Shown here in pieces: positions 16,450-28,720 of a stretch of DNA of 64,000 nt. Position 1 is the first letter of the stretch; the number at the start of each line of letters is the position of its first letter. The notes below the pieces were generated by a model. It saw only the letters and a program-made list of their open reading frames with translations, was not told the DNA's origin and did no database searches. The stretch is taken from contig QCPZ01000004.1 of assembly GCA_003212345.1 (NCBI GenBank), forward strand, positions 1-64,000, read 5' to 3'. Made by a program: the position numbers and the translations under genes. The DNA comes from SAR116 cluster bacterium AG-447-A06. Its GTDB lineage: Bacteria; Pseudomonadota; Alphaproteobacteria; Puniceispirillales; Puniceispirillaceae.

Positions 16450-16478
16450 AAGTGCTGATCACTAAACCGGAGAAACGC

Positions 16479-16838
16479 ATGATCCGCAGAGCGAAGCAAG
16501 ATTCGGGTAAAATAAAAGCAGCAACCCATCTGCTATTCTTAATATGCCTTTGTTCCTGCCTGCCGGAACGTTTCAGACATGAAAAATATGATTGCTCAGG
16601 CAGCCTGCAAACCATCAACACCATTGTTATAAATAAGGCCAAGACCGGCAATCACGCCAAAGTCGTCAGCCCGACAAGCGAGACGGAGGCTAATATTACC
16701 CAGATTGATGAGCAAACAGCTTGGTTGACGTATAAAAACATGCAAATGAAAATAAACAGGAAAACCGGTACAATGACAATGGTTCAGGGAACCCAATATA
16801 GAAAAGTAAGTTGCAAGAAAACAGTCTTCACAATGTAG
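16479..16838 (+). CDS. Putative small lipoprotein/secreted protein, unknown
   Basis: MIRRAKQDSGKIKAATHLLFLICLCSC: basic n-region, hydrophobic core, lipobox-like LCSC. Confidence 0.55.
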   Translation: MIRRAKQDSGKIKAATHLLFLICLCSCLPERFRHEKYDCSGSLQTINTIVINKAKTGNHAKVVSPTSETEANITQIDEQTAWLTYKNMQMKINRKTGTMTMVQGTQYRKVSCKKTVFTM

Positions 16839-16907: not shown

Positions 16908-17351
16908 TTAACCAGAGTCGTTGGGGCCATGAAACCTTGCAACAGCTTTAGCTTCATCAACACTAATCCCAGCCTTTTTAACTATTTCATCAACGCTTAA
17001 TCCGCCTCGAGCAAATTCTATTGCTTTTGACAATTTATTATCGCTACCGACAGTTTTTGTCAAAAGCTCCTGTTCAAAGCGTACTTGCTCAACCATGGCT
17101 ATAATTTGATTGTGCCTACTTTCGAACTTTTCAAAATTTTCAATACATTCATTCCAGCTGATGCTTAGCTTCGAGAGCCCATCAAGAGCATTGGCGACGT
17201 CAAACCTGATCTTCTTGATATCAGTCTCTAATCGTGCAACCTTTTTCAAAAGATGAAAACCCACAAAACCAATAAACAACAGCAAAAGCGAAACGCCAGT
17301 TGCTATCGTTATAAATGAAGGATTTTCTGATAGTAAGACTAGGTTTGACAT
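16908..17351 (-). CDS. DUF2802-like membrane-anchored protein
   Basis: N-terminal TM helix, coiled coil, C-terminal KAIEFARGGLSVDEIVKKAGISVDEAKAVARFHG resembles the DUF2802 helix-turn-helix. Confidence 0.65.
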   Translation of the reverse strand: MSNLVLLSENPSFITIATGVSLLLLFIGFVGFHLLKKVARLETDIKKIRFDVANALDGLSKLSISWNECIENFEKFESRHNQIIAMVEQVRFEQELLTKTVGSDNKLSKAIEFARGGLSVDEIVKKAGISVDEAKAVARFHGPNDSG

Positions 17352-18113: not shown

Positions 18114-18923
18114 TTATTTAGTCAAAACCTTAATTTTTTTGCGAGAAACAACAATTCCTTCAACAAGTTTCCCACTATGCTGATTTTGAGCCTGCAACAA
18201 CTCCCCAATCTGGGCATTACCAGCAGAAATTCCACTGCTTACAACAACCACTGGTCCAGATGTTGATTGGATTATAATTTTTTGGCCCTTTCGTATATCC
18301 CAATCAATTTCAAGATGTCGGCTTAAAATCATCTGGTTAACACCCAAATTTTTTTTCAACTTCCGACCGACAACATCGCTGACGTTGGCAAAATAGCCCG
18401 TGCGATTTTTTGTCCTAGCCACTCTCAAAACAACATCATCATGGGACAGAATACGTCCTTTCTGAACACTTCTGGCCATAGCTAAATACTTTTCTACAGC
18501 ATTCTTCGGAAAATCTTCTACAAAAGTTTGATTTTCTACTTTGGTCGATGACGCTGACTCAGCGGTAATTTGATCTGCCTCACTAGTCAAAGATCCGATT
18601 TTACCTTTACTAACAGCATTGGTCCGCACCGCAATTTTAAACCCACCTGGATCCGGACAAAACAGTTCAACTGTTTTCATTCCCCCAAACATCGGGCGTA
18701 TTAACACATCGGACTCACAAGCCGGAAATAATCTTTTTTCTGAAATCGCTGGTTTCCCGCTTAAATTCTGCGCAGCCAGAAAGGAATTGATTCTCTGTTT
18801 CATCTGGGTGCCACTAATCATTTCGCTCGCGACCGCAGCAAATGCATGAGGCGATCCGCAAACGGCCAAAACCACCATAAAAAACATCATATATTTCTTA
18901 GCCACCAAAGAAAAAGATCTCAT
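18114..18923 (-). CDS. flgA: Flagellar P-ring assembly chaperone FlgA (SAF domain)
   Basis: LSHDDVVLRVARTKNRTGYFANVSDVVGRKLKKNLGVNQMILSRHLE...KGQKIIIQSTSGPVVVVSSGISAGNAQIGE. Confidence 0.9.
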   Translation of the reverse strand: MRSFSLVAKKYMMFFMVVLAVCGSPHAFAAVASEMISGTQMKQRINSFLAAQNLSGKPAISEKRLFPACESDVLIRPMFGGMKTVELFCPDPGGFKIAVRTNAVSKGKIGSLTSEADQITAESASSTKVENQTFVEDFPKNAVEKYLAMARSVQKGRILSHDDVVLRVARTKNRTGYFANVSDVVGRKLKKNLGVNQMILSRHLEIDWDIRKGQKIIIQSTSGPVVVVSSGISAGNAQIGELLQAQNQHSGKLVEGIVVSRKKIKVLTK

Positions 18924-19338
18924 TACGTGTCCCATTTTCAGATGCGTTTCTATTTTCTAATTTTTCCTTCGTGATTAGCGCCCGTATCTGATTCACTGAC
19001 GGCAAATGAAGGGTTTTCCCTGCATAAAGAAAGTTTGGGTTGCCTCTAACAAAGGCAGAACGATTAAATTGTAAAATCGCAATTTGGACAAATGCCATAT
19101 TAAGTCCACTGCCACCATAATAGTCAGACATTATATGACCAAGAGTTTCCGCTTCCAGAACTTCATGTTTTTTGAATTCATCAGGGTTTACCCGCATAGG
19201 ATGCGAGCTATATTCATCCGACATTGTTCCGTAATCAGCCCGATTTTCACCATAGGTCAGAACAACAATTGGTTCGGCTGCCTGCGCGGCCACTATGTGC
19301 AACATCGCGAAAACAAATGTAAGTAGAAATACACGCAT
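18898..19338 (-). CDS. Secreted small protein with LysM/FimV-N-like segment
   Basis: Signal peptide MRVFLLTFVFAMLHIVAAQAAEP; QIAILQFNRSAFVRGNPNFLYAGKTLHLPSV resembles FimV/LysM; TGATG coupling to flgT. Confidence 0.65.
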   Translation of the reverse strand: MRVFLLTFVFAMLHIVAAQAAEPIVVLTYGENRADYGTMSDEYSSHPMRVNPDEFKKHEVLEAETLGHIMSDYYGGSGLNMAFVQIAILQFNRSAFVRGNPNFLYAGKTLHLPSVNQIRALITKEKLENRNASENGTRNEIFFFGG

Positions 19339-20468
19339 CAGTTAAACTCCAAAAAAGAAACTTTTTGCCCACTGAGCTGCGAAAGCGAACGCTTGCGGTT
19401 TAGCGGCTTTAAAACCGCGCTATTCATCGTAGTCTTTACCACCCTTAAGATAGTCCACGGTGTTGTTTTATTTGCGACAACCGCTAGCCGATTGTCCCGC
19501 AGTCCCTGTTGTGCTCCGATTGGGATATGCAACCCGTCTTCTCGCGCAACCATAATGGCGGCAAGCGGGGTGCACTGCATTGCAACTGTAACCTCAGCAA
19601 CGTGTTCCAAAACAAGATTAGAAAATCTATTACGAACTTTTGACCGATTAGGAGATGTCACATTGCCTATAAATTTGAGTGCCGTTATATTTCGGAGCGG
19701 TATCCTAGCCTCATTAGTTACAGTTTGCGTTTCCTTAAAATCGCTATCAATGAAAACTTTGGTCTCAATAATAGCGTCAACAAAATGATTCTCTTGAAAG
19801 TTCTCTTTTTGAACTATTTTGTTCATCATTATATTTGTTGAAAATGCAAAATCACCATCCCGAATTTTAGTAACACCTGATGTGAGGGCTTTATAGCTGT
19901 AGCGTGAATCTTTTGTGAGACTCTGCGGGTCTAGGGGCACATCGGTTTTATTTATCATTTCGACATCGGATCTTTTCGCCATCTGGTCATAAAAATTTTT
20001 CACAAGACCAGTTGGTATATGGGACACCCAAGCTGGAACCTCATTATCAATGGTGATAACGGGTGCGAACATTGTTACATTATTTACTGGACGGTTTTGA
20101 CATTCCGTTTTTCTTACCTCTCCAACCGCAGCCTCGATTGTGATTGCGTAATGCAAATCATCAGATTGCTCATTCAAAATATCATAATCAACAATTTTAC
20201 TTGATGGCCTGACCACAAAATGATCATCGAGCTGAGTGCCAGCCTGAATCGAACTAAAGCCTTCAATTTTTGCGCCGCCAAGGAGCGCAGCACTATATAA
20301 CGCGTCTTCAAGAGCACGAGACCGTGTTTCCTGAAGTTGCTCATCAGAAAGGATCGCCGCACGGCCTGTTGACGTAACAAGTTTTAAATTTTCCTCATTG
20401 GCCTCGGCGAATGGCAGTTGCGAGAAAAATAAACTTAGAAAAGTTATAAGGCAGTTGGACTTAACCAT
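19338..20468 (-). CDS. flgT: FlgT-like flagellar assembly (H-ring) protein
   Basis: Signal peptide; STGRAAILSDEQLQETRSRALEDALYSAALLGGAKIEGFSSI resembles FlgT N-terminal domain; directly downstream of flgP. Confidence 0.75.
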   Translation of the reverse strand: MVKSNCLITFLSLFFSQLPFAEANEENLKLVTSTGRAAILSDEQLQETRSRALEDALYSAALLGGAKIEGFSSIQAGTQLDDHFVVRPSSKIVDYDILNEQSDDLHYAITIEAAVGEVRKTECQNRPVNNVTMFAPVITIDNEVPAWVSHIPTGLVKNFYDQMAKRSDVEMINKTDVPLDPQSLTKDSRYSYKALTSGVTKIRDGDFAFSTNIMMNKIVQKENFQENHFVDAIIETKVFIDSDFKETQTVTNEARIPLRNITALKFIGNVTSPNRSKVRNRFSNLVLEHVAEVTVAMQCTPLAAIMVAREDGLHIPIGAQQGLRDNRLAVVANKTTPWTILRVVKTTMNSAVLKPLNRKRSLSQLSGQKVSFLEFN

Positions 20469-20472
20469 GGAG

Positions 20473-20979
20473 TTAGGCCGTTTTCCGTGCGGTTGTCAAA
20501 AGATAGCCGATAGTTTCCCGATCAATTTCCAACACGACCTCGTAAGTATCAGTTCCCGTGGGGTTGATCCTGACAGTGCGTGCACCCCTAATGGTCCCAT
20601 TTACCATGCCTCGAAAAGTGTCATTTTGAACAATCAAATCGATAACAGTTGTACTTGAGTCCACCTTCAATCCATGAATTTGTTCAGCCAAATCACGCAT
20701 TGCAGCCATCCGCGCGGACCTAATAGCCATCAAACGTTTTTGTGCTTCATTGCGGCCCGGTTGAGTGGATGTAACAGCATAACCAACCGCGGTGAGTGTT
20801 GGGATGTTTTCAGCACCTGCATTAAAAACGTCTTTAATGTTGACCAATGTTTGCGTTTGTGACGCTTCCACACTGGCAATTTTATCCACTACAACCGGCT
20901 CTTTTGTGACATGTTGGCAACCAGTAAGAAGAACCAGACCGATACTCATACTCACTGCTGTTGAAAATACCTTATTCAT
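20473..20979 (-). CDS. flgP: FlgP/LPP20-family outer-membrane lipoprotein
   Basis: Lipobox VLLTGC; AVGYAVTSTQPGRNEAQKRLMAIRSARMAAMRDLAEQIHGLKVDSSTTV LPP20/FlgP signature. Confidence 0.82.
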   Translation of the reverse strand: MNKVFSTAVSMSIGLVLLTGCQHVTKEPVVVDKIASVEASQTQTLVNIKDVFNAGAENIPTLTAVGYAVTSTQPGRNEAQKRLMAIRSARMAAMRDLAEQIHGLKVDSSTTVIDLIVQNDTFRGMVNGTIRGARTVRINPTGTDTYEVVLEIDRETIGYLLTTARKTA

Positions 20980-21360: not shown

Positions 21361-23481
21361 ATGATTATGACACTACAAAAATTTGGCGGGGCTGGCCTGA
21401 GTTCAACGGTTTCTGCATTAATACTGTCAACCGGTATTTTAGTCCTAGTTGCAATGATGGTACTGCCATTACCAACCTTCTTGCTTGATACATTTTTTGT
21501 ATCGAATATTTTACTGTCGATTTTGGTATTGATGGTCGCCCTCCACGCCTACCGTCCCCTAGACTTTTCAAGCTTTCCAAGTCTGCTATTAATCGCAACC
21601 GTACTTAGGCTTGGTCTTAATGTTGCCTCAACGCGGGTAATACTTGGTAAAGGTCAAGATGGACCTGAGGCAGCTGGGCAGGTCATAAATGCATTCGGTC
21701 AATTTGTAATTGCCGGTAACTATGCAGTCGGTATTTTCGTTTTCGTCATTTTAGTCATCATAAATCTTGTTGTCATCACCAAGGGCGCTGGTCGTGTTTC
21801 AGAAGTTTCAGCACGCTTCACCCTTGATGCAATGCCAGGAAAACAGATGGCCATTGATGCTGATTTAAATGCCGGCGTCCTAACTAGTGAAGAAGCAAAA
21901 GAACGTCGCGAGGAGATTTCACGCGAAGCAGATTTTTATGGGGCCATGGATGGCGCATCAAAATTTGTGAAAGGTGATGCCATTGCCGGTATTCTCATTC
22001 TCGCGATCAACATCATTGGAGGGTTGATTATTGGCGTAACGCAGCATGACCTTGATATTGGTCAGGCCTCAGAAACCTATATTCTCTTGTCAGTTGGTGA
22101 TGGCCTTGTTGCACAAATACCATCATTAATGCTCGCAATCGCTACCGCAATTATAGTCACCCGTGTTTCCTCAACCGAGAATATGGCAGCTCATATCGGG
22201 ACACAAATTTCTTTGTCAAGAGCTTGGATACCTGTTTCCGCCGTTCTACTTTTAATGGGTCTCGTCCCAGGCATGCCCAATGCACTATTCCTAGTTGCCG
22301 CTGCTATTGCAGGTAGTGCCGGTCTGGTGATGCGTCGCAAAGAAAAAACAACCGAAATTGACCTTGGTGAAGCTGGGTTAGCTACCGAAGAAGCCACAGA
22401 AAAAAAGCCTGACCAGATTGACCTTACTGACGTTACAGATAATTCCGCCCTGTCAGTTCAACTCGGTTATGGGTTAATAGAAATGGTTGACGAAGATACA
22501 GGTGGACCGCTTGTCAATCGTATTACCAGCATCCGCAAGCAGGTGTCAAAATCATTAGGCTTTGTGATGCCAGCAGTTCGTGTTCGAGATGATATGTCAC
22601 TAAGTGCAAATGAATATCGTGTAAAGGTAGGTCAAACCATTGTTGGGGAGGATGTTATTTATCCAAACTGTAAAATGGCAATCCCGGGCGACAACACAAA
22701 TGTCAAAATTTCTGGAATTGAGGTAAAGGACCCAAGCTTCAACATGGATGCTGTCTGGATTGAGCGCCACAAAGAAGCTGAAGCCGAGAGTAATGGATAT
22801 GTAGTGATTGAGCCTGAGTCGGTTTTAGCGACCCATCTGTCACAAATAATGTATAAATTTGCGGCCGAGTTGGTTGGCCAGGACGATGTCCAAAAACTGC
22901 TCGACAACCTCTCTCAATCCTCGCCCAGCCTAGTGGAGTCAGTTGTGCCAAAATTGGTACCTCTGCACACGTTAACCGGCATTTTGTGTGAATTACTGAA
23001 AGAAAGGGTGCCTATTAGCGATCTCCGAAAAATCTTAGAAGCTTTAGCGAATATGTCGGGACAGAACCTTAATGTAATTGAAGTTGCTGAGGCGCTAAGG
23101 CCAAGCCTAGCTGGCCTACTGATTCAGCAGATTGCGCCCTTAAATCAGCCCTTGCCAGTCATAACCCTCAGTTCAGAGTTGGAGCATATGCTTATCTCCA
23201 TTTCCAATCAGAGTAATGATGGCAACTTGTTGTTGGATGCAGATCTGGCTCAACGCCTGATTAAATCCATTTCCGAGGCCAGTGAGAAATCGATGGCCGA
23301 CGGGCGCCAAGCAGTGATGATCGTTGCCCCCCAAGTTAGACGGCAGTTATCGCTGCTTTTGAGACACCATATCGACGATTTATTTGTCTTTGGTTTTACG
23401 GAATTACCAGACAATCGCAAAATTAACGTTATTGCCACCATCAGCAATGACAGTGAAGCCAAACTAGAGACCACGGAATAA
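21361..23481 (+). CDS. flhA: Flagellar type III export protein FlhA
   Basis: Multi-TM N-terminal half; AMPGKQMAIDADLNAG and YGAMDGASKFVKGDAIAGI FHIPEP motifs. Confidence 0.97.
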   Translation: MIMTLQKFGGAGLSSTVSALILSTGILVLVAMMVLPLPTFLLDTFFVSNILLSILVLMVALHAYRPLDFSSFPSLLLIATVLRLGLNVASTRVILGKGQDGPEAAGQVINAFGQFVIAGNYAVGIFVFVILVIINLVVITKGAGRVSEVSARFTLDAMPGKQMAIDADLNAGVLTSEEAKERREEISREADFYGAMDGASKFVKGDAIAGILILAINIIGGLIIGVTQHDLDIGQASETYILLSVGDGLVAQIPSLMLAIATAIIVTRVSSTENMAAHIGTQISLSRAWIPVSAVLLLMGLVPGMPNALFLVAAAIAGSAGLVMRRKEKTTEIDLGEAGLATEEATEKKPDQIDLTDVTDNSALSVQLGYGLIEMVDEDTGGPLVNRITSIRKQVSKSLGFVMPAVRVRDDMSLSANEYRVKVGQTIVGEDVIYPNCKMAIPGDNTNVKISGIEVKDPSFNMDAVWIERHKEAEAESNGYVVIEPESVLATHLSQIMYKFAAELVGQDDVQKLLDNLSQSSPSLVESVVPKLVPLHTLTGILCELLKERVPISDLRKILEALANMSGQNLNVIEVAEALRPSLAGLLIQQIAPLNQPLPVITLSSELEHMLISISNQSNDGNLLLDADLAQRLIKSISEASEKSMADGRQAVMIVAPQVRRQLSLLLRHHIDDLFVFGFTELPDNRKINVIATISNDSEAKLETTE

Positions 23482-23522: not shown

Positions 23523-24713
23523 ATGCCAAAATTAACAGTTCAAGCTATGGATAGCGCCGCCGCTATGGACGAGATTGTTAGCAAGCTCGGACCTGATGCC
23601 GTCATTTTATCGACAACCAAATTGAATGGAAAAGTCGTAATGGAAGCCGCATCAGGTACAATCCCCAATCCAGCGCCAACTAAGGATGAGAAAAAATTTA
23701 CTAATATTTTCTCTGAACAAATGATTAAAACACCCCACCGCAGATTAGCAAACGGTAAAAAGCTGGATCAAAATGTGTCCAACAATCACAACGATGAGGT
23801 TGTCGGCGAGCATATGGTAGCACGTAATAGTGAAGTGGATAATCTCCGAAAACAGTTAAGCGGTATTCAAAAGATGATGGACGGGCTTTTTGTAACGGAT
23901 ATTGATGGCCTTAATCAAAATTTATCGTCAAATAGCCGTGTCACTCTTCAGCAAGCTGGGTTTTCGCACCAAATTCTGAATGATTTCAGAAATTCATATT
24001 TAGGACAAAGCTACAGCAATGGTTGCAATGCATTTCTGACTGACCTCTCATGCCATCTGACCCATTCAAATAGCGAAAGCCTTTTAACCAAAAAATTTAT
24101 ATTTGTGGCAGGGCAATCTGGAACTGGCCGCACGACCATGGTCGGTAAATTGACTGCTACGCTGAAGGAGGCTCTCCCCCATAAAGAGATCATGACTGTA
24201 GAAATGGTGCCAGAGGGTCAGCGCCCCAATACCCAACTACAAGATTTTTGTCGATTACTAAATAGTCAGGTATATACGATTAGCCTTGACGCCCCCACTC
24301 CAGACTTGACCAAGATCAAACAAAATGAGGTCATGGTTGTTGATCTGGCAGTACCGATTAGCTATGCCGCGACAAAACTAGGAGACATGGTGGGAGAACT
24401 GGGCGCTAAAAATATTGAGGTTCTCGCGACAATTCCTGCAAGCACCAGTTCAAACATGATTACGTTGACAATGAATGAACTTGAAAATTTTGTGTCTATG
24501 GTTGCACTCACAAAACTGGACGAATGCGACATCACCACCTCTGAATTTTCCTCTCTTGCAACAGCAGACGCAAAAATTGGCTTATTTTCAGCATCAAAAT
24601 CGATCATGGACGCCCCAATATTTGCATCGCAGAATGTCTTGATGCAGTATTTGAGGGAGAATCTTGAGTCCGTGGTGAAACAAGACCCCATTAGTGATAG
24701 GATAGACATTTAA
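23523..24713 (+). CDS. flhF: FlhF-like SRP-type GTPase homologue with degenerate nucleotide-binding motifs
   Basis: N-terminal AMDEIVSKLGPDAVILSTTKLNGKVVMEAA FlhF-like; GQSGTGRTTMVGKL P-loop position; TKLDE retained; between flhA and flhG. Confidence 0.85.
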   Translation: MPKLTVQAMDSAAAMDEIVSKLGPDAVILSTTKLNGKVVMEAASGTIPNPAPTKDEKKFTNIFSEQMIKTPHRRLANGKKLDQNVSNNHNDEVVGEHMVARNSEVDNLRKQLSGIQKMMDGLFVTDIDGLNQNLSSNSRVTLQQAGFSHQILNDFRNSYLGQSYSNGCNAFLTDLSCHLTHSNSESLLTKKFIFVAGQSGTGRTTMVGKLTATLKEALPHKEIMTVEMVPEGQRPNTQLQDFCRLLNSQVYTISLDAPTPDLTKIKQNEVMVVDLAVPISYAATKLGDMVGELGAKNIEVLATIPASTSSNMITLTMNELENFVSMVALTKLDECDITTSEFSSLATADAKIGLFSASKSIMDAPIFASQNVLMQYLRENLESVVKQDPISDRIDI

Positions 24714-24715
24714 CA

Positions 24716-25504
24716 ATGACCCTCTCAATTGCAGTAACAAGTGGCAAAGGTGGGGTTGGCAAAACCAACACCGCAGTTAACCTTGCAATCTCACTTGGAC
24801 AAACAGGGAAAAAGGTTCTTTTGTTTGATGCGGATTTTGGCCTTGCCAACGTGCATGTTTTGTTGGGAACAAAGCCCGCAAAATCAGTTGCCGATTTCCT
24901 TGATAAGAAATGCTCGATGGAAGAAAGCATAACCACATTCAATAACAATTTAAAAATTATATCGGGTGGTTCAGGGCTTACTGAACTTTTAAATCTGGAC
25001 AATCACCGCCGCCATCAAATTTTATCTGGCATTTCCCATCTTGACCAAAACATCGACTATTTGATTGTAGATTGCCCCGCTGGTGCGGCGGATAGCACCC
25101 TATTTTTTGCCAGCGCATCAGATCTTGTTGTTGTTGTTTTAGTTGAAGAGCCGACCAGCTTCCTTGATGCTTACGCATTGATTAAGGCAGCAAATATGGA
25201 AACAGGTGTGAAAAATTTTGCAGTTGTAGTCAATATGGCTGACAATAAAAGTGTTGCGAAAAGCAGCTTTGAAAAATTTCGTGAAATCGCAATGCGGTTT
25301 TTGGACGTAAATTTGCATTACGCGGGAATGATACCGCACTCAAAAGAAATAAAGCATGCTGTTGCTCGGCGAAGACCCGTTACAATTGACAAGCCAAACG
25401 CATTAGTATCAACGTCCTTTGGTGAGGTCGCCAAGAGATTGCTGAAGGTGCCTACAGCGAAAATTGAAGGTCTAAAATTTTTTGACAATGCAGGTGGAAA
25501 ATGA
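24716..25504 (+). CDS. flhG: MinD-family ATPase FlhG (FleN)
   Basis: SGKGGVGKTNTAVNLA deviant Walker A; DADFGLANVHVLLG; between flhF and fliA. Confidence 0.92.
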   Translation: MTLSIAVTSGKGGVGKTNTAVNLAISLGQTGKKVLLFDADFGLANVHVLLGTKPAKSVADFLDKKCSMEESITTFNNNLKIISGGSGLTELLNLDNHRRHQILSGISHLDQNIDYLIVDCPAGAADSTLFFASASDLVVVVLVEEPTSFLDAYALIKAANMETGVKNFAVVVNMADNKSVAKSSFEKFREIAMRFLDVNLHYAGMIPHSKEIKHAVARRRPVTIDKPNALVSTSFGEVAKRLLKVPTAKIEGLKFFDNAGGK

Positions 25505-26223
25505 GTCCAACAAAACGAGACCATTACGCTGATCAGAAAATAGATGTTGATGAGGTCATCAAGTTAAACACCAATCTGGTCAAAAAAATCGCCTGGCACA
25601 TTTATGGTCGGGCTAGTCACGCGATAGAGATTGAGGACCTAATGCAAATTGGTTTTGCCGCACTTGTCAATGCAGCACAGCAATATACCCGGAAAGAAGG
25701 GGCAACCTTTGCTACCTATGCGTCTATAAGAATTAAGGGCGATATCATCGACCACCTCCGCAAGGCATCCAACCTTTGCCGAACAACAATATCAATGAAA
25801 AAGCGTTATAACAAGGTACTTACGGATCTTCAAAGTAAACTATTTCGCGAGCCAACATCTGAAGAGATCAGTACGGCGATGGGCATAACTGAGGTCGAAT
25901 TCAGGGAATGGGAGCGCGCATTTCAGGCAAACTCTCATGAGTCACTGGATAGTGTTTACGACCAATATTCTGTTTGGTTTGCATCAGCCGAAGACTCACC
26001 TGAGGAGCTGTTAAACGACAAAGACCTCAAAGAAGTTTTAAAACAGGCATTAAAGCAACTTTCGGGAAATGAGGCGATGGTCATCCAACTTTATTATGTA
26101 GAAGAACTTAACGTTATGGAAATTGCTGAGGTTCTCGATGTATCAAGTGGCCGCGTATCCCAAATCAAGAAATCAGCGATAGCAAACCTCCGTGATGGAA
26201 TGAAAAACCTGCAAGCGATTTAG
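25501..26223 (+). CDS. fliA: Flagellar sigma factor sigma-28 FliA
   Basis: EIEDLMQIGFAALVNAAQQY...FATYASIRIKGDIIDHLRK; C-terminal VMEIAEVLDVSSGRVSQIKKSAI. Confidence 0.93.
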   Translation: MSPTKRDHYADQKIDVDEVIKLNTNLVKKIAWHIYGRASHAIEIEDLMQIGFAALVNAAQQYTRKEGATFATYASIRIKGDIIDHLRKASNLCRTTISMKKRYNKVLTDLQSKLFREPTSEEISTAMGITEVEFREWERAFQANSHESLDSVYDQYSVWFASAEDSPEELLNDKDLKEVLKQALKQLSGNEAMVIQLYYVEELNVMEIAEVLDVSSGRVSQIKKSAIANLRDGMKNLQAI

Positions 26224-26226
26224 CCG

Positions 26227-26640
26227 ATGAACAAGCCGCAGTTTTTTGAGAGCATTAATGACATTGAAATGCGCGTCCATAGCGCTGAACACCAGATTCA
26301 GTCTATTGGAAATGCTGAGTGTCTGGCTCTAAAATTATCGTTAATTACGATTGCACGAGGGTCCTGTTCCATGGTCATATCACCCGGGCAGCCCAAAAAG
26401 GGACATTTTGCGAAATTACATATTCCGTCAGATCGGAATGTAATTGAAGCGGTGCTTACGCTACCGCAAGAGCATTTTGACAAACTTACTAAGCATATGT
26501 CACAAATCGCAGACCGTGTTGTAACCGCAAAAATTACTTTGGATAAAACGCTTGTTCTAGACCATCAAGGATGCTTGATTATCGAGGACTCAACTGATGC
26601 GCTGATAACTAATCTCGTCTGGACGTTTTCTTTAAAATAG
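26227..26640 (+). CDS. Uncharacterised protein downstream of fliA
   Basis: ORF starting 4 nt after fliA stop; no recognised motif. Confidence 0.6.
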   Translation: MNKPQFFESINDIEMRVHSAEHQIQSIGNAECLALKLSLITIARGSCSMVISPGQPKKGHFAKLHIPSDRNVIEAVLTLPQEHFDKLTKHMSQIADRVVTAKITLDKTLVLDHQGCLIIEDSTDALITNLVWTFSLK

Positions 26641-27653: not shown

Positions 27654-28040
27654 ATGGCACAGAAACAAAGCACATCACTGGTACCGATCAAAAAGAAACT
27701 ACCGGCGGTAAAAAGCACGGATAAAGGTGCCCAACCCTTTACCCTTTTTGATGGTGAACGCCACTTCACCGACCGTGAGGATGTTCGCGAGTTTTTACCT
27801 GATATATTGGGTAAAGCATTGGCAAGGACTTGGATTGATCCAGAATTCCACCAAGCTTTTGATAATGACCCATGTGGAACATTGGAAGCACACAGCATTT
27901 TTCTACCCGAAAATATGTCTATCGAATTTCAACGGCAAAATGCTGACCGGCCACGGATCGTTGTTTATGAGCAACGCCCAAATTCAAAATTCAAAATGCG
28001 AATACTGTACCTTCAACTTGTAATGATGGCAGGACGCTGA
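27654..28040 (+). CDS. Small protein with nitrile hydratase alpha/NHLP-like segment
   Basis: KALARTWIDPEFHQAFDNDPCGTLEAHSIFLPENMSIEFQRQNADRPRIVVYEQRP matches the W-DP-F...DP...L...LPE pattern of that family. Confidence 0.65.
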   Translation: MAQKQSTSLVPIKKKLPAVKSTDKGAQPFTLFDGERHFTDREDVREFLPDILGKALARTWIDPEFHQAFDNDPCGTLEAHSIFLPENMSIEFQRQNADRPRIVVYEQRPNSKFKMRILYLQLVMMAGR

Positions 28041-28720
28041 TGGCCAACTTGTTAAGGACCTGCTATTGGGTATTCGGCGCTCTAATGATTGCAATCTACC
28101 TATATACTGGTCCGGCAAAGGCAAGCGACGAACAGACAAAGATGGAGAATGCGGCATTCAAGGAAGCCGTGCAAGCGGTTAAAGATAAAAACTATGCCCA
28201 CGCTATCACATTATTTGAGGAGCAAGCCAAACTTCCGCGTCATGACGCTCAGTATAATCTCGCTGTCCTTCTGAATGCTGGCAAAGGGCGGCCACGCAAT
28301 TACGTTGACGCACTCTATTGGTCATGGCAAGCACAGCTTGGAGACATAGAAGATGCTGAAGACCTTGCCAGTGACATTGTTGATTTACTGCCGCCAAAGA
28401 TCGCTGATGAGGTGCGCAGCCGCGTTGGGAAAACATTGGAAGCCCGTATTGAGGCCAATGATGTATTGGCGATACCACAATTTGCTAATTTTCACCTAAA
28501 AATTCTAGCTGAACCTGATTACGGCAACGCCTACATTTGGCATTCTATCGCAGCAGCCCTAAGCCTACCAGGTAGTGGCGATGCTCGTGACGATGCCGAA
28601 TCCCAACTAGATAGCAAAGACCTTGTCACGCTTCAGACTAAGACACAGAAAATATTCGAAAAACACAATTTTAAGCCAACACCAAGCATTGGCAAAGTAG
28701 GTACGGGAGGCGCAAAATGA
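28040..28720 (+). CDS. Secreted/membrane-anchored TPR/Sel1-like protein
   Basis: N-terminal hydrophobic segment; NYAHAITLFEEQAKLPRHDAQYNLAVLLNAGKGRPRNYVDALYWSWQA. Confidence 0.65.
   Translation: MANLLRTCYWVFGALMIAIYLYTGPAKASDEQTKMENAAFKEAVQAVKDKNYAHAITLFEEQAKLPRHDAQYNLAVLLNAGKGRPRNYVDALYWSWQAQLGDIEDAEDLASDIVDLLPPKIADEVRSRVGKTLEARIEANDVLAIPQFANFHLKILAEPDYGNAYIWHSIAAALSLPGSGDARDDAESQLDSKDLVTLQTKTQKIFEKHNFKPTPSIGKVGTGGAK

Follow-up and report, generated by a model that had tools for sequence, protein, structure and literature searches.

Whether FlhF has to hydrolyse GTP is disputed, on the evidence of point mutants from a few model bacteria. In Vibrio alginolyticus the R334A substitution abolishes the GTPase activity of FlhF with polar localisation and flagella remaining normal, G380A has a mild phenotype, T306A, T436M, D439A and E440K abolish flagella, and K305A, D377A and K437A reduce them; the GTPase activity can be dispensable in this genus (PMC6092412). 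In Shewanella the FliG-interaction domain (FID) of FlhF binds FliG and the NG domain binds the polar landmark HubP (PMC11236974), and in Vibrio a second FlhF anchor, FipA, is needed for FlhF recruitment and for flagella (PMC11620751). Catalysis by SRP GTPases can be assisted in trans, by the SRP RNA or by the FlhG helix (PMC12826062), and FleN, the FlhG of Pseudomonas, is devoid of this DQAxxLR helix (PMC12713375).

We have analysed a window of 64,000 nucleotides from the SAR116 cluster bacterium AG-447-A06 (order Puniceispirillales; contig QCPZ01000004.1), which carries on the forward strand flhA (21361-23481, PF00771, 4.6e-240), flhF (23523-24713, 396 aa), flhG (24716-25504, 262 aa) and fliA, encoding sigma-28 (25501-26223, TIGR02479, 2.3e-59). 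The order flhA-flhF-flhG is conserved at the loci of relatives. An open reading frame of 137 aa lies 3' of fliA (26227-26640, +); it matches no NCBIfam family and reaches the cut-off of no Pfam family, and a similar-looking frame follows fliA in family f2 of the order (L236, 3054-3482). Elsewhere in the window (19338-20979, -, and 28040-28720, +) we observed an FlgT N-terminal domain, an LPP20 (FlgP-like) lipoprotein and a weak MotX/Sel1 similarity, that is, H/T-ring parts of the Vibrio type together with the flhA-flhF-flhG-fliA order in an alphaproteobacterial host.

The product of flhF is FlhF by descent, sharing with the described proteins (TIGR03499; 8r9r, 2px0, 9en1) the flhA-flhF-flhG-fliA locus, the FID, the linker and the fold of the N and G domains. 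Its match to TIGR03499 (9.4e-15) reaches 55.4 bits against a curated cut-off of 174 bits. A profile built from 20 SAR116 FlhF relatives (A1) retrieves as its two top PDB chains the FlhF of Shewanella (8r9r, 1.5e-17) and of Bacillus (2px0, 3e-13), and also matches the FID (B-domain) crystal structure 9en1 (7e-6). The AlphaFold model (pLDDT 79) is confident for the FID and the NG domain and disordered in the linker. The FID (aa 1-46, 23523-23660, +) is predicted as beta-alpha-beta-beta with pLDDT 85-91, the linker (aa 47-135, 23661-23927, +) stays below 50 across most of its length, and the N and G domains (aa 136-396, 23928-24710, +) adopt the SRP-type NG fold. In a Foldseek search 8r9r (TMt 0.76, E 2.2e-11) and 2px0 (TMt 0.72) rank second and third, and have the top target TM-scores among the 50 matches listed. 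A second, intact FlhF encoded elsewhere was ruled out, the other matches in the genomes searched being weak (E ~1e-6 to 1e-9) and having the length and position of FtsY/Ffh.

The active site departs from the described family. The G1 motif or P-loop reads GQSGTGRTT (aa 197-205, 24111-24137, +), with Arg203 encoded by CGC at 24129-24131; the G2 region (aa 227-239, 24201-24239, +) reads EMVPEGQRPNTQL in place of the canonical (T/S)xDTxRIGAxEQL; the G3 region reads VVDLAVP (24336-24356, +; VVDLAV corresponds to aa 272-277), keeping Asp274 and losing the Thr and Gly of DTxG; and the G4 motif TKLDE (aa 330-334, 24510-24524, +) is intact. Our alignment comprised 58 FlhFs of SAR116, 19 of Alphaproteobacteria outside this order and 41 of bacteria outside the class. 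The most telling loss, which the preliminary description of this locus had missed, is that of the SRP-GTPase motif DTxR(I/A)(G/A) at aa 229-234: Asp229 is kept in none of the 58 SAR116 proteins versus 59 of 60 elsewhere, and Arg232 likewise in 0/58, versus Arg or Lys in 60/60. Thr275 of DTxG is absent from all 58 and Gly277 is replaced in nearly all, whereas DTxR and the TxG of G3 are retained in 56-60 of the 60 FlhFs outside SAR116. No conserved substitute for the Asp and Arg of DTxR or for the Thr of G3 appears at those columns among the 58 proteins, and the G5 loop, GQxVPED, is rewritten. By contrast, G197, G200, G202, K209, D274, K331, D333 and E334 are kept in 58/58 and T204 in 57/58. In the alphaproteobacterial FlhFs outside SAR116 (L030-L052) G4 reads TRLD instead of TKLDE in 16 of 19, and the Arg after DTxG is usually missing, so that this class of FlhF is already somewhat atypical.

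The replacement of the P-loop Lys by Arg, the degenerate G3 and the abrupt start of FlhG had been described previously from the letters of the window, and all three are present there. The Arg is found in all 10 genomes of the same genus that contain FlhF, with GxxGxGRTT encoded by CGC, CGT or AGA and DTxG in none, a shared state which rules out a sequencing artefact. It is however neither general nor primary, since 37 of the 58 SAR116 FlhFs keep the Lys and 21, including that of the window, have Arg. According to a tree of FlhA and FlhG, the whole order shares the G2/G3 loss, and the Arg arose at least two times, on the f1 branch that holds the genus of the window and in f3, where one genus shows both states. 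Relatives with canonical motifs would have contradicted the degenerate reading, and none was found within the order (58/58); conservation over 58 distinct proteins excludes chance. The statement that only TKLDE survives was too strong, as the P-loop glycines, Thr204, Lys209 and Asp274 are kept as well. Judged from its motifs, FlhF has a degenerate hydrolytic machinery throughout SAR116, and since the catalytic DTxR and DTxG motifs occur in none of the 58 proteins, this is FlhF by descent and not a canonical FlhF GTPase.

The pattern of kept and lost positions was mapped by alignment onto Vibrionaceae FlhF. The positions of Vibrio R334 (aa 232) and G380 (aa 277), where mutation spares the flagellum, are those lost in SAR116, and T306, D439, T436 and E440 (aa 204, 333, 330 and 334), needed for flagella, are those kept; K305, whose mutant is tolerated with reduced flagella, is the P-loop position that varies. 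The position of D470 in the G5 loop fits poorly, its mutant being listed as reduced and the residue being changed in SAR116. This agreement with the Vibrio phenotypes is the strongest argument that binding has been kept and hydrolysis has gone, and the conserved residues argue that GTP binding is still under selection, and against an independence from nucleotide. Our reading, which we regard as probable with some reserve, is that FlhF in SAR116 is an SRP-type GTPase defective in hydrolysis that tethers FliG to a membrane anchor.

Replacement of the P-loop Lys by Arg usually harms nucleotide binding, and its occurrence in 21 of the 58 proteins, the window included, counts against this explanation; with the G5 loop rewritten, binding may also be weak or altered. 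The same substitution, the rewriting of the G2, G3 and G5 loops and the ability of family f2 to drop the NG domain would suit a true pseudo-GTPase, in which the NG domain had lost nucleotide binding entirely and served purely for docking between proteins. We consider this unlikely, because proteins that are just 25-30% identical all, or nearly all, retain the P-loop glycines, Thr204, Asp274 and TKLDE; these are exactly the contacts to phosphate, Mg and guanine, and their conservation would be difficult to account for if nothing were bound. The retained GTP-binding residues would also suit a divergent mechanism of hydrolysis, in which other residues or a partner would give the catalytic groups, as the trans-acting help known for SRP GTPases allows. 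The Asp and Arg of DTxR and the Thr of G3 are gone in 58/58 from columns that hold no conserved substitute, and FlhG is devoid of the enhancer helix, which makes such a mechanism improbable.

The ATG of flhG (24716) lies two bases past the stop of flhF, and the frame is closed by a stop 5 codons before it, which makes an N-terminal helix impossible. FlhG has a MinD-type ATPase core with KGGVGKT and the second Asp motif, and its Walker residues are invariant (alignment A2). Its best PDB match and closest solved relative is Pseudomonas FleN (5j1j, 1.7e-54, 188 bits), which likewise combines complete MinD-type Walker motifs with the absence of the DQAxxLR helix. This helix is absent from all the SAR116 FlhGs examined and from every other alphaproteobacterial FlhG examined, including the neighbours of FlhFs with GKT and DTxG. 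The scan was able to see the motif, as it detected DQAxxLR in 28 of 80 named loci retrieved with the FlhG profile, from Firmicutes, spirochaetes, Vibrio-type gammaproteobacteria and some deltaproteobacteria. Being general in the sampled Alphaproteobacteria and shared with FleN, the absence of the helix is background and not half of a coupled change. The preliminary description had joined both features, which do occur together in SAR116, into a double loss, of catalysis in FlhF and of the activator in FlhG, that made a new GTPase-independent polarity system; this now appears very doubtful, given that Pseudomonas has no helix either and its FlhF keeps GKT and DTxG (PMC12713375).

Unlike FleN, SAR116 FlhG ends shortly after the conserved FF (GLKFF; 25400-25504, +) and has none of the xERL tail that gammaproteobacterial sequences show, so that its membrane targeting may be lost or changed. 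In the FlhG tree SAR116 falls outside the alphaproteobacterial clade, and the locus may have a gammaproteobacterial origin, but a constraint placing SAR116 with the Alphaproteobacteria is not rejected (AU p = 0.227).

The ratio dN/dS, computed for the window against the two relatives nearest to it, is 0.04-0.07 for the FID, 0.16-0.32 for the linker and 0.08-0.13 for the NG domain (aa 136-388), compared with 0.08-0.20 for FlhG and 0.05-0.08 for FlhA. With dN/dS ~0.1, purifying selection on the NG domain is strong, which rules out that flhF is a pseudogene. In one locus (L122, G392:C1) FlhF has 352 aa and a badly broken G domain (GPSLSGKTL, TQLDI), possibly a second, independent path of NG decay, in a bin with 7% contamination, and in one genome (L009/L028, G011:C8) a frameshift, either a real change or an assembly error, splits flhF in the middle of the G domain. 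These two cases and the loss of the NG domain in f2 might recall a decaying gene on its way out, which is extremely unlikely in view of the dN/dS values on the NG domain and the FID and because among the tested genomes FlhF is missing only where flhA is missing too (15 of the 15 without FlhF).

The window also encodes a FipA-like protein of 147 aa (16908-17351, -) with a single N-terminal TM helix, a coil and a C-terminal DUF2802 (PF10975, 1.3e-7, 33 bits, the curated cut-off being 33.5). In this architecture, in its length (~150 aa) and in its presence in the flagellar cluster of flagellates with an NG-type FlhF it resembles the described FipA. It differs in lying below the Pfam cut-off in 5 of the 6 genomes with a PF10975 match, and in position, the gene standing beside flgM-flgN and not downstream of the flhA-fliA-chemotaxis operon; it is placed after flgA and flgM-like and flgN-like genes, the latter two named from sequence reading and gene order. 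By hand alignment, an Ala occupies the expected place of L129, the FlhF-binding residue of Vibrio FipA. A SAR116 FipA profile (E below 1e-11) detected the protein in 34 of 40 genomes with an NG-type FlhF, in 0/8 of family f2 and in 0/10 aflagellate genomes. Many of the genomes are metagenome bins in fragments, and five of the six NG genomes in which it is missing (G009, G371, G029, G005, G019) carry flhF on a contig of 6-13 kb; fragmentation is likely to lie behind the absence in those five, and short contigs to account for the 6/40. A small, conserved putative lipoprotein gene (16452-16838, +) is convergent with fipA and marks the slot from which fipA is lost in f2.

The gene at 18898-19338 (-), beside flgA and flgT, encodes a small secreted protein whose domain is of the FimV/HubP-core (LysM-like) type (TIGR03505, 2.1e-7); it has counterparts in 8/8 SAR116 genomes tested and represents a mini-FimV without a TM or cytoplasmic part. 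Landmarks were searched in 8 SAR116 genomes: PopZ was found in 0/8, the FimV C-terminal domain in 0/8 by a search with no clear positive control, and FleQ gave weak matches in 2/8. The open-access literature searched yielded no data on SAR116 flagellation.

In family f2 the gene between flhA and flhG has retained the FID alone (~46 aa, 50-55% identical to that of the window); the NG domain is gone, and a coiled coil leads instead into one TM helix and then a DUF3426 domain. This arrangement is present in 8 genomes, one of them a single contig. AlphaFold models the f2 protein with little confidence overall (pLDDT 65.5), the usable parts being the FID and a beta-sandwich only. The order flgA-flgM-flgN is intact and fipA is cleanly absent, with ~30 bp (G028) or ~50 bp (G025) to the next gene. 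For its TM-DUF3426 half, a homologue is encoded in the f2 genome G025, a ZitP-like protein with a zinc ribbon (E 4e-12 to 7e-9). ZitP, a polar protein of Caulobacter, combines an MJ0042 zinc ribbon with a TM helix and DUF3426, and the f2 protein carries the FID and the coiled coil in place of the zinc ribbon; the motility defect of Caulobacter zitP is suppressed by a fliG mutation (PMC5182063). From gene content and domain organisation, f2 has lost the NG domain and FipA together and has fused a predicted membrane anchor to the FliG-binding domain. The co-loss being a single evolutionary event, the link between NG and FipA is suggestive and not statistical. The exchange of a GTPase domain for a membrane anchor suggests that FlhF works as a tether rather than as a clockwork switch.

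In the mechanism that we propose, by analogy with Shewanella, the N-terminal FID would capture FliG and hence FliF-FliG, and the NG domain, which probably still carries GTP or a different nucleotide to fold and dock, would hold this complex at a membrane anchor that includes FipA. With DTxR and DTxG gone and FlhG devoid of the enhancer helix, the hydrolysis and FlhG-stimulated release described for Shewanella and Bacillus cannot run as known, and release of FliG, which frees it to bind FliM/FliN, may proceed by another step, such as binding equilibrium, turnover or FlhG acting differently. Family f2 would have gone a step further by building the anchor into the protein through the coiled coil, the TM helix and the ZitP-like DUF3426. 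A Shewanella-like tether minus the hydrolysis step would be the simplest account of SAR116. More tentatively, it is possible that the GTP switch has disappeared altogether from the placement of flagella in SAR116, FlhF being a static tether from FliG to the pole in most families and a single membrane protein replacing NG and FipA in f2, so that the FID and a membrane anchor would be the irreducible core of FlhF.

Hydrolysis-independent placement is already known from Vibrio (PMC6092412), and what is new, within the sampled bacteria and the open-access literature searched, is its apparent natural fixation across an order, together with FipA in the window and the replacement of the NG domain in f2 with loss of FipA. 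As far as the motifs indicate, a seemingly hydrolysis-dead FlhF with its binding residues kept has become fixed throughout an abundant order of marine bacteria, and SAR116 and f2 offer natural variants for asking what the GTPase of FlhF does. The co-loss in f2 ties FipA to the NG domain, and the FID-TM-DUF3426 protein is a candidate flagellar placement factor. If FlhF is indeed a static tether, f2 would be the natural proof that a FliG-binding domain and a membrane anchor constitute its core.
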